DNA of 64,000 nt from Pagrus major (Eukaryota; Chordata; Actinopteri; Spariformes; Sparidae): NCBI RefSeq assembly GCF_040436345.1, contig NC_133221.1, forward strand, positions 21,400,665 to 21,464,664, read 5' to 3'. The position numbers were made by a program, and so were the translations under genes. Below, piece by piece: positions 20,101 through 64,000 of the stretch. Under the pieces are notes generated by a model, which worked only from the letters and a program-made list of their open reading frames with translations, was not told where the DNA came from and did no database searches. The stretch's first letter is position 1. Each line of letters opens with the position of its first letter.

Positions 20101-22805
20101 CTGACGTGTTTAGACTAAATGACAAAACCCAGGGCCCCCATGTCAGAGCTACGCTTCTTTTCTCCGTACACAGGCATGGACTTTTTCCCCGCCAACTAGC
20201 TCTGCAATTTGATTATGGTGATATTTAATCTAGATTGAAAGAGGAGAACTTTCCCCCCCAACGCCCCAAAGTCCCCCTTCCCGCATTTACCCACCCACTG
20301 TGTGTGACCCAATCCTGTCCCTGTGCACCCCTCCCCAGAGGTAATCCTGTCTGATTTGATAAATGTCCACTGTGTGGCAAAAAATGGAAAGGGTAAATTT
20401 GCCGTCCCAGAGGAAATGATATCATGAGCCATGACATCGTGGTCTGGGGGTGATGGAGGGGGGGAGTTGGGGTGCTGGCTGGAAAATGTACAGATGGCAG
20501 GTCGTAATGGTGGCGTGCTGATAGCCTGTTTGCAGATCAGCCATCGTCTTCTTTCAGTCACACAAAGTATGTTCCACCATTACAGAGTGTGGGGGAACCA
20601 GTCTGAAGCGGGGCATCTCCTGCTCTGTGTCTGAGGAGCTGGCCAATTAATCATGCACGGGCCGTTTGAAAAGCGCTGCGGGCAGACTGTCAGCACCCAT
20701 GTTGTTTGTGTGGACACTGGAGTTGGACTGTGCATGCTGTCAACAGATTATTTATGTTTCTCTCTCTGCTTGTGATGAGTCATGTTTTTAAATGGTTGGG
20801 AAATGGTGGAACAACCACCCAGCTCCAGACCAGACACATCGCTCAGAGAAAATGTCCTTCTCACTTTTAGATCAGTGCTGGTAAACAATTAAAAGAGCAC
20901 AAAGCAGATTAAATTTGCAAATGAGGTTGGGGTTCTGCCAACCCCCTCATCCCTTTGCATCATTTTTTTATCCTTCCTTCTGTCTTATCAGAACAAAACT
21001 TCTTTCCTGTCTCTTTCTCTTTTATTGGACAACCATTGCAAGATTTAAAATGGAGATTTAAATGAGTCGGCAATGCTAACCACCATTTTATCACCAGCTT
21101 ATGTTTGTTTGTTTTGTTTTTTTAATTTTGTTTTTTGTTATTTACAATTTTATACATTGTTTTTGCTTTCCTTACAAAATTTGACAACATGCAGCTTGAC
21201 ATACTGGACAAAAGTGACTTCACATGTGCTTTAAATGCCTGTTTCTTACACTGAAATGTCACTAATACAGGAAGAAGAAGGCAGTGGCTTCAGAAACAGT
21301 TCCCAGCATTAGTGACACTTCCTCTCTTCTTTGACCTTTGACCCCCCTGCAGATCAGACCAAGCTGAGGAGGAGCGCCCACCCAGTCACAGTTTGTCCAA
21401 CTCCAAGCTAGGGCTGCAGGGGCTGGAGGAGGAAGAAGAGGAAGTGGAGGGCGACGATGAAGAGGAGGAGGAAGGCAGTCTGACAGAGAAGTCTCACGAT
21501 GAGGCGCCCGAGTCCCCGTCTCCCGTCACAACAGGAGTGTACGAGGAGGACGAGGAGGAGGAAGAGTCAGCTCCATTAGCTATGAGCTATGAACACACTC
21601 GCAGGTAAACCACATGTAATGTGTCCATTAACAGAAACTGCCTGTTTTACCTTCTGTCTTTATAACTTCTGCTAATACTAAACTGCACTATATACTGAGC
21701 AGGGCAGACAGAAGTAAAACAAAGACTGAACATATAGATTCCCTTAACAGACACTCAGAAGGTCAGCTTGTGAGGTCAGCTTCTGCTCCTTCTCTTCTCT
21801 CCTTTTTCTTCTTCGTCCTTTTATTAAATGTACATCTCCTTTTCTCTTCTCTTCATGTTTCCTTTCACCTAAACTTCCTCCTTGTCCTTCCGCCTTCCAT
21901 CACATTAACTTTCCATCCATCCGTCCCCAACCGACCCATCCACACTGCCCTATTTCTGCCATCCATGTGTCCATCCACCCCTCGGTGTGCAGGTGTATAG
22001 AGGAGGACGGCTCTCTCCTGGACCTGGAGGGTCTGCCCAGCTTTCCTAAGAGCCTGGAGGGGTTACGTAAAGCAGCCAGTGGCGAGCAACCCTTTGATGT
22101 TAAAGACATTTTTAACACTTCACTAGAGTCGGAGGCATTGAAAGAGACTTTGTACAGACAGGCTAAAACCCAGGTATGTGACTGGCTTTTGGATGTCCAC
22201 TAAAAGAGGGAGGGACAGGAAAGATGTTCTGATAACACAGGAGGAAGGGAACAAAGCTGATTGATCAAGAGATGAGAGGGATCCTTTCACATGTTCAGGT
22301 TCTTGATAGCTGAAACTGTAGCTTAAAAGTGCCTCTTGTCCTGCCCAATCACGTCTTTTCCTTTCACTTAACCTACTAACATTACCTGTAACTGCTCTTT
22401 CTCATCTTCAGTCTTAAAACAGTCTAAAGAAACATAATTACATGGTATAGTGTCATGAATGTAAAGGATAATATGGTGTATCACAACTTGAGATCTGGGA
22501 ACATGGCAACATCACTACAGAGAAAGTAACGGAAAGTAACAGAAATGAGACCTAATGAACCAGAATCGTCCTTTTATTTCTTAACAGGTCATTGGACGGA
22601 GGAAAATGTTACTAAAAATGAAAAACTGTGCAGTTTCCTCTCATTAAAAGTCATCTGTCTTCTCCCGCAGGCTTATGCAATGATGCTGTCTCTCTCGGAG
22701 AACAACGCTTTGCACGGGCCCTCCCAGAACTCTCTGGACGCTTGGCTGAGCATGGGAGGTGGACCGTCTGAGACGAGCAGCTTTCACCCGCTCAACCACA
22801 TCTAG
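5061..22805 (+). CDS. prdm16: prdm16, PR/SET-domain zinc-finger transcription factor (13 exons; 5' end outside window)
   Basis: Exons by splice signals and phase: 5061-5163, 9127-9328, 9443-9590, 9882-10035, 10675-12322, 12481-12565, 14426-14598, 14728-14805, 15483-15652, 17688-17859, 21353-21604, 21993-22173, 22671-22805. They sum to 3,501 nt, 1,166 codons plus stop, with no phase clash. Order: end of PR/SET (GEELLVYM), seven C2H2/C2HC fingers, Pro/Ser-rich middle with PFDLT and the CtBP-binding motif PLDLS, three fingers, an acidic run and a C-terminus ending FHPLNHI. The family are nuclear DNA-binding coregulators; in mammals PRDM16 drives brown-fat, craniofacial and haematopoietic programmes. 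It is prdm16 rather than mecom because of the [14 protein letters not shown] segment and the SLDAWL...FHP.NH C-terminus. The N-terminal exons, including most of the PR domain, lie before position 1. Confidence 0.95.
6167..6199. repeat. (TCTA)n microsatellite
   Basis: About eight perfect TCTA units. Confidence 0.92.
7111..7181. repeat. (TG)n followed by GAGAGACA repeats
   Basis: A compound microsatellite: TG units, then GAGA and GACAGAGA units. Confidence 0.85.
9127..9328 (+). CDS. prdm16: prdm16 exon: zinc finger 1 and first half of finger 2
   Basis: The acceptor TGTGCAG follows a TG-rich tract. It encodes [14 protein letters not shown] and continues to EYR. Finger 1 is of the C2HC kind (final ligand Cys in HQKYSC), as is usual for this family. 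Finger 2 ([14 protein letters not shown]) is split by the intron in phase 2. Confidence 0.93.
9443..9590 (+). CDS. prdm16: prdm16 exon: end of finger 2, finger 3, start of finger 4
   Basis: It encodes [14 protein letters not shown], the complete finger [20 protein letters not shown], and then FECENCDK. The phases (2 in, 0 out) match its neighbours. The intron before it is only 114 bp. Confidence 0.93.
9882..10035 (+). CDS. prdm16: prdm16 exon: end of finger 4, finger 5, start of finger 6
   Basis: It starts [16 protein letters not shown], followed by [19 protein letters not shown] and KPFIC. The donor T|GTAAGTG splits the Cys codon of finger 6, which is restored by GC at 10675. Confidence 0.92.
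10036..10674. other. prdm16 intron, nothing recognised
   Basis: 639 bp of AT-rich intron with no repeat or exon recognised. Confidence 0.7.
10675..12322 (+). CDS. prdm16: prdm16 large exon: fingers 6-7, proline-rich repression region, CtBP motif
   Basis: This 1,648-nt exon completes finger 6 ([18 protein letters not shown]) and carries finger 7 (C2HC type, [17 protein letters not shown]). A Pro/Ser/His-rich region follows, with a basic GKRRKPS near 11440, [21 protein letters not shown] (11928-11942) and PLDLS (12057-12071, the CtBP-binding consensus). It ends FFMDPIYR. The donor is CAG|GTATTT. The open frame runs a few codons into the intron to 12341, but the exon 12481-12565 continues the conserved protein. 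Confidence 0.95.
12057..12071 (+). other. prdm16: CtBP-binding motif PLDLS
   Basis: It encodes [18 protein letters not shown] is the established docking motif for the CtBP1/2 corepressors in PRDM16 and EVI1. A related PFDLT lies 43 codons before it. Confidence 0.9.
12481..12565 (+). CDS. prdm16: prdm16 exon (85 nt, VEKRK...FHPQ)
   Basis: The acceptor is GTCCAGCAG. It encodes [20 protein letters not shown] and then SPPLFHPQ, a conserved segment in PRDM16 and MECOM. The donor is CACAG|GTAGG. The 158-bp intron before it is short. Confidence 0.92.
12566..14425. other. prdm16 intron, no exon seen
   Basis: 1.86 kb. 13740-13990 is unusually complex, balanced in base composition and free of repeats, and might be a conserved regulatory element (inference). 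A poly-T and a short CA tract lie at 14130-14215. Confidence 0.6.
14426..14598 (+). CDS. prdm16: prdm16 exon: MSAMENM...KGKERYACR
   Basis: The acceptor is CACCCAG. It encodes [20 protein letters not shown], then [20 protein letters not shown] and the first Cys of finger 8. It ends in phase 2. Confidence 0.93.
14728..14805 (+). CDS. prdm16: prdm16 exon: zinc finger 8
   Basis: It encodes [19 protein letters not shown] and GEQPYR, the first finger of the C-terminal three-finger cluster. It is 78 nt, phase 2 in and out. Confidence 0.94.
14806..15482. other. prdm16 intron with a hAT-type MITE fragment
   Basis: At 15073-15180 it contains TTAGGGATGCATCTATTGG followed by ATCGGCCAGGCATGAGTG, resembling the common teleost hAT-type MITE with a TAGGGATGCACCGAT end. 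Otherwise nothing is recognised. Confidence 0.5.
15483..15652 (+). CDS. prdm16: prdm16 exon: zinc fingers 9 and 10
   Basis: It encodes [19 protein letters not shown], then [20 protein letters not shown] and HEHENIP. The donor is G|GTTAGT, phase 1. Confidence 0.94.
15653..17687. other. prdm16 intron with a teleost repeat
   Basis: About 2 kb, AT-rich. It contains the widespread fish repeat core AACTTTATTTATATAGCACC (16930-17020). No exon was seen. Confidence 0.6.
16930..17020. repeat. Teleost interspersed repeat (TTTATTTATATAGCAC family)
   Basis: It has AATCAATCAATCAAACTTT, then TATATAGCACC and AAAGTGATTTACAAGC. A member of the same family forms the left part of the 293-bp insertion at 28516. 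Confidence 0.65.
17688..17859 (+). CDS. prdm16: prdm16 exon: [14 protein letters not shown] segment
   Basis: The acceptor is CCCCAACAG. It encodes [18 protein letters not shown], then [20 protein letters not shown] and [10 protein letters not shown]. This segment separates prdm16 from mecom. The donor is AG|GTAACA. Confidence 0.93.
17860..21352. other. prdm16 intron (about 3.5 kb)
   Basis: It contains a diverged inverted-end repeat (18460-18830). 19480-20900 is dense, non-repetitive sequence that may include conserved non-coding elements (inference). The left border of the large duplication falls at 21134. No further exon was found. Confidence 0.6.
18460..18830. repeat. Diverged teleost inverted-end repeat
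   Basis: AGCTGCAGTGATTAGTTGAT at one end and AATAATCATTAGTCATGG at the other, with CCAACTATTTTGATAA in the core. It is related to the copy at 365-690. Confidence 0.5.
21353..21604 (+). CDS. prdm16: prdm16 exon: acidic region
   Basis: The acceptor is CCCTGCAG. It encodes [18 protein letters not shown], runs of Glu/Asp ([19 protein letters not shown] and YEEDEEEEE) and MSYEHTRR. It is 252 nt, phase 2 in and out. A near-identical copy lies at 47309-47560. Confidence 0.92.
21605..21992. other. prdm16 intron, pyrimidine-rich
   Basis: 388 bp, with a long CT-rich stretch (21770-21990) before the acceptor. Nothing else was recognised. Confidence 0.7.
21993..22173 (+). CDS. prdm16: prdm16 exon: CIEEDG...RQAKTQ
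   Basis: It encodes [17 protein letters not shown], then [20 protein letters not shown] and YRQAKTQ, matching the end region of PRDM16. The donor is CAG|GTATGT at phase 0. Confidence 0.92.
22174..22670. other. prdm16 last intron, nothing recognised
   Basis: 497 bp, no repeat or exon recognised. It is duplicated at 48130-48626. Confidence 0.7.
22671..22805 (+). CDS. prdm16: prdm16 terminal coding exon
   Basis: The acceptor is CTCCCGCAG. It encodes [20 protein letters not shown] and SLDAWL, ending FHPLNHI with TAG at 22803-22805. A GA microsatellite starts two bases after the stop codon. Confidence 0.94.
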   Translation, partial: AYAMMLSLSENNALHGPSQNSLDAWLSMGGGPSETSSFHPLNHI

Positions 22806-22807
22806 AC

Positions 22808-63968: not shown

Positions 63969-64000
63969 TCTCAAAGTGGCGGTCTGTTCAGTTCTACTGT

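Follow-up and report, generated by a model that had tools for sequence, protein, structure and literature searches.

The window analysed here is a stretch of 64,000 nucleotides (C7:21400665-21464664, C7 being the contig) from a 785.9-Mb, 25-contig assembly, which we examined together with 10 kb of upstream and 79 kb of downstream flank, a region of 153 kb in all. Positions are window coordinates unless the contig is given. On the plus strand lies a gene that combines zinc fingers with PRDM16-type acidic and C-terminal exons; on the minus strand, an array of C1q-like genes extends from 27 to 121 kb. The names proposed in the first-pass annotation, the 3' end of prdm16 and a C1q cluster, hold on the strength of the zinc fingers, the matches to C-terminal baits and Pfam family PF00386. 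For the last exon, bait identity is 67% with PRDM16 versus 44% with MECOM, with baits other than database proteins, and the C-terminal exons are of the PRDM16 rather than the MECOM type. For the large upstream exon of prdm16, at 10638-12338, the genome contains a single full-length match and, on contig C2, two weaker partial ones, which probably mark a paralogue, by its likely name mecom. A further prdm16 exon lies at 17687-17860. The terminal prdm16 exons occur twice in the window, once in each of two repeat units whose limits are given further below:

21353..21604, plus strand: antepenultimate (acidic) coding exon of prdm16, copy 1; edges placed provisionally by splice consensus
21993..22173, plus strand: penultimate coding exon, copy 1; edges likewise placed provisionally by splice consensus
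22671..22805, plus strand: last coding exon with stop, copy 1
47309..47560, plus strand: antepenultimate coding exon, copy 2; open, protein identical to copy 1
47949..48129, plus strand: penultimate coding exon, copy 2; open, one residue unlike copy 1
48627..48761, plus strand: last coding exon with stop, copy 2; protein identical to copy 1

The C1q-like gene array

Within the 153-kb region the array comprises 14 leader exons and 13 complete C1q domains plus a partial one. A genome-wide search for C1q domains returned at least 112 matches, 13 of them over the cut-off inside the array (C7:21427652-21519972), and three of these 13 are interrupted by stops in the stretch that was matched or read through. 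All four C1q-domain exons that were scanned passed Pfam PF00386. Grouped by their order, the exons suggest the following genes in the window:

26979..29492, minus strand: C1q-like gene 1 of unit 1; leader 29241-29492, coiled coil near 28027-28092, C1q domain 26979-27278
30731..32764, minus strand: C1q-like gene 2 of unit 1; leader 32513-32764, coiled coil 31798-31896, C1q domain 30731-31054
34485..39717, minus strand: C1q-like gene 3 of unit 1; leader 39466-39717, C1q domain 34485-34808
52920..55445, minus strand: C1q-like gene 1 of unit 2
58732..63968, minus strand: C1q-like gene of unit 2 that matches gene 3 of unit 1

The C1q domain of gene 1 in unit 1 sits in the open frame 26874-27278, and that of gene 2 has no counterpart in unit 2. 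The leader exon of gene 1 in unit 2 (55194-55445) contains a premature stop where its unit 1 counterpart is open. With C1q-like, cerebellin and adiponectin proteins the array genes share the C1q domain (PF00386), for which adiponectin, cerebellin-1, collagen VIII and C1q-like protein 2 score highest among solved chains; unlike proteins of that kind, they have a leader exon and a coiled-coil exon before the domain. A non-exhaustive inspection of translated frames of at least 80 aa from the array genes revealed no collagen repeats. In the search for a gene beyond the array, two ORFs gave no Pfam match. Other groups of C1q matches in the same genome lie at C21:24984905-25007852 (24.98-25.01 Mb) and C10:5.88-6.81 Mb.

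Divergence was compared along the array (26979-121097, C7:21427643-21521761) for C1q cores and leader exons. Among the ten cores of the main group mean dN is 0.131 and mean dS 0.117, with dN exceeding dS in 29 of 45 pairs, figures that, like the ones that follow, are plain means over non-independent pairs with gene conversion ignored. When the three diverged copies of gene 1 are included (13 cores), the ratio of means is 0.87 and dN exceeds dS in 32 of 78 pairs. The leader exon is nearly uniform across its 14 copies, with 69 of 84 columns invariant, a mean dN of 0.019 and a mean dS of 0.027. Judging from sequence, this pattern would fit diversification of the binding domain alongside homogenised leaders.

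Tandem units and their junction

The first-pass annotation had reported that 21134-39749 recurs from 47090 to the end of the window, and self-BLAST bears this out in three colinear blocks, which pair 21134-29595 with 47090-55549 (98.8% identity), 32053-34126 with 54753-56807 (97.1%) and 34119-39749 with 58367-64000 (98.1%). The repeat does begin inside a prdm16 intron, as had been stated, namely the one that precedes the last three coding exons. Its supposed right limit of 39749, on the other hand, merely reflects the window edge: unit 2 runs on, with equivalents of 40315-47089, to 68311. An arrangement in which the copies end at 39749 and flank a single-copy spacer was rejected because the second copy extends beyond the window. 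We delimit the units as follows:

21134..47089, plus strand: unit 1, 25,956 bp; prdm16 3' end and C1q block, with a truncated transposon copy at its end
47090..64000 in the window, plus strand: unit 2, running on to window coordinate 68311 (C7:21468975) and clipped by the window end

Over six colinear blocks, including sequence beyond the window end, units 1 and 2 differ at 208 of 19,345 aligned bases (1.08%). A third copy of the unit start, again in plus orientation, follows at window coordinate 68312. This unit 3 is decayed; it remains colinear, if with deletions, as far as about 75.1 kb, where differently arranged C1q units take over. When an 801-bp probe from the unit start was compared with the genome, 27 matches were found among the best candidates scored: three are near-complete, all on C7 and at 100, 99 and 98% identity, and 24 are short, falling on one low-complexity stretch of the probe. 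What we see is therefore three adjacent copies of high identity in one orientation, as expected of a tandem duplication. The wider region is rich in same-strand self-matches of at least 1 kb (54, of which 49 lie outside the pairing of units 1 and 2, those involving unit 3 included), with a median identity of 94.7%. Its flanks, from -10 to 21.1 kb and from 121.7 to 143.2 kb, have no self-matches at thresholds of 300 bp and E 1e-20.

The boundary between units 1 and 2 involves two features:

46535..47089, plus strand: fragment of an interspersed repeat that closes unit 1, cut off at the junction
47080..47100, no strand: duplication junction 47089/47090, at which the truncated transposon meets prdm16 intron, with microhomology of about 4 bp

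The repeat to the left of the join has relatives on other contigs. Two of these, which we compared, continue for about 110 bp past the equivalent point, so the repeat must be truncated at the join; we had first suspected a transposon end as the breakpoint and rejected it since these two copies run beyond that point. The approximately four bases shared by both junction partners were read by eye. The junction recurs base for base at 68311/68312, with 57 bases identical (30 to the left and 27 to the right of the join), and 945 of 957 aligned positions around the two junctions agree. Successive copies thus have a defined breakpoint junction in common, as tandem duplication would leave behind. Given that a single false haplotype join could not put the same breakpoint in two places, at least one true tandem duplication must have taken place.

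This result bears on the choice between duplication and uncollapsed haplotype that the first-pass annotation had left undecided. Imagine that each haplotype held one copy and that the assembly had placed both in tandem, no duplication having occurred. The divergence between the window copies could be of allelic size, as this scenario needs, but there is a third copy, the same junction turns up twice, in slightly different versions, and copy 3 has a frameshift and has lost most of the last prdm16 coding exon, a state hardly expected of a functional allele. On the evidence of the third copy and of the junction's recurrence we reject this pure artefact, to which we give almost no credence, and with it the one-copy-per-haplotype part of the earlier proposal; a narrower haplotype artefact, considered below, keeps some probability. 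Assuming a diploid, the three copies in one contig outnumber the haplotypes, and one of the three might yet be a copy from the other haplotype.

According to PMC9516828, false duplications are marked by half depth, in most cases gaps, discordant reads and one-copy k-mers, and some are joined by sequence lacking read support rather than by a gap. There is no N in the window or in the 153-kb region; since, by the same account, gapless joins also occur at false duplications, a missing gap is weak evidence. The heterotype false duplications described there resemble the present locus in that adjacent, near-identical copies differ in substitutions, microsatellites and transposons. They differ from it in that we find no gap, three copies, and one breakpoint repeated base for base.

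Structural differences and the mosaic of unit 2

The two copies had also been said to differ mainly as alleles would. There are five large structural differences, namely a 3.25-kb C1q segment, 39959-40314, 42161-42768 and 44321-46445, found in unit 1 only, and 56808-58366, found in unit 2 only. Three of them can be described further:

42161..42768, no strand: hAT-like non-autonomous element, unit 1 only; clean insertion with an 8-bp target duplication, read by eye
44321..46445, no strand: 2.1-kb stretch, unit 1 only; 76 unrelated bases stand in its place in unit 2
56808..58366, plus strand: Gypsy-type LTR element fragment, unit 2 only; 5'-truncated, with RT and RNase H adjoining the LTR

Along unit 2 the best match in unit 1 shifts from one leader exon, at 29.1 kb, to another, at 32.6 kb, so that the 3.25-kb difference looks like recombination between leader exons. 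Unit 2 holds the empty site for the insertion at 42161-42768, which we take to be hAT from the features of its ends and the length of its target. The right end of the 2.1-kb stretch (46300-46444) has many copies at 99-100% identity across the genome. The fragment at 56808-58366, presumably Gypsy by its type of RT-RNase H, is flanked by a short direct repeat and has copies of 99-100% identity on four other contigs. In related genomic copies RT-RNase H lies directly before the LTR with no integrase after RNase H, an order that we assume to be that of Gmr1-like elements; at the left end of the fragment 23 bases are unmatched. A C-terminal remnant of a hAT transposase (PF05699) is found at 41535-42152, inside a block common to units 1 and 2.

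A three-way alignment of 21134-28310 yielded 120 substitution sites unique to unit 1 (29) or to unit 3 (91). The first six informative sites are all unique to unit 1, that is, units 2 and 3 agree there; to the right of 21461-21488, 91 of 114 sites are unique to unit 3, and 23 are unique to unit 1 and still group unit 2 with unit 3 (maximal chi-square 19.8, permutation p about 0.001 from 5000 shuffles). Unit 2 is a chimera, unit-3-like to the left of about 21.47 kb and mostly unit-1-like to the right. Unequal crossing-over between unit 1 and a downstream unit predicts such a mosaic; gene conversion or an assembly switch would give the same pattern. Over 105 segments of 400 bp, the best match of unit 2 is unit 1 in 84, lies elsewhere in four, is tied in 11 and is missing in six, which makes unit 2 the closest relative of unit 1.

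Origin of the units and the orphan prdm16 exons

In our judgement, the units probably arose by real segmental duplication in tandem, where a young array of C1q-like genes borders on prdm16. A divergence of 1.08% could also be reached between two haplotypes in an outbred fish. Divergence by itself cannot separate paralogue from allele for unit 2, and this value, together with the predominance of unit 1 among best matches, counts against duplication in that both are also expected from an allele. A narrower scenario makes use of this: each haplotype would consist of unit 1 and the decayed unit 3, and the middle unit would be unit 1 of the other haplotype, which the assembler would have inserted by way of the shared repeat. 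Apart from the close match between units 1 and 2, it is favoured by prdm16 exons that are open in both and by young transposons that occupy one unit but not the other, and an assembly switch could account for the mosaic point near 21.47 kb. Yet for alleles, we judge, five such large differences in structure over about 19.3 kb of aligned sequence would be a heavy load, and gaps, usual if not universal at false duplications according to PMC9516828, are lacking. We regard this scenario as unlikely, if well above the pure artefact.

On the favoured explanation, the first step would have been a microhomology-type join of a truncated array transposon copy to the prdm16 intron, leaving unit 1 and an orphan downstream unit. 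The mosaic suggests a second step, in which unit 1 and the unit downstream of it would have crossed over unequally within a few hundred bases of the unit start, producing a middle unit with a unit-3-like left end and a mostly unit-1-like remainder. The orphan sets of prdm16 exons hitch-hike with the C1q genes.

Tandem segmental duplication and birth-and-death evolution are familiar from immune-type gene arrays, and the event is of this ordinary kind, with interesting local detail. As in such arrays, the units hold several genes and exhibit gene gain and loss, broken exons, transposons restricted to single units and a mosaic unit; they differ in that the unit also carries three terminal prdm16 exons as a passenger. 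The open-access papers covered, on C1q tandem duplication in fish and on the prdm16 neighbourhood, show nothing on this locus. For C1q biology, it adds one more fast-changing array. The third copy and the repeated breakpoint suffice, from the assembled bases alone, to make biology the most likely source of tandem copies here, rather than uncollapsed haplotypes only.

The passenger exons have fared differently. Those of unit 2 are open, and those of unit 3 have decayed, with a frameshift in the acidic exon and most of the last exon missing, which shows relaxed constraint. Presumably prdm16 keeps using the exons of unit 1, and automatic annotation may mistake the orphan sets for additional prdm16-like genes. 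That the open set in unit 2 (47309-48761) is spliced as an alternative 3' end of prdm16 beyond the C1q genes strikes us as very improbable; if it were, changes in the copy number of the C1q array would also alter the end of a developmental regulator.
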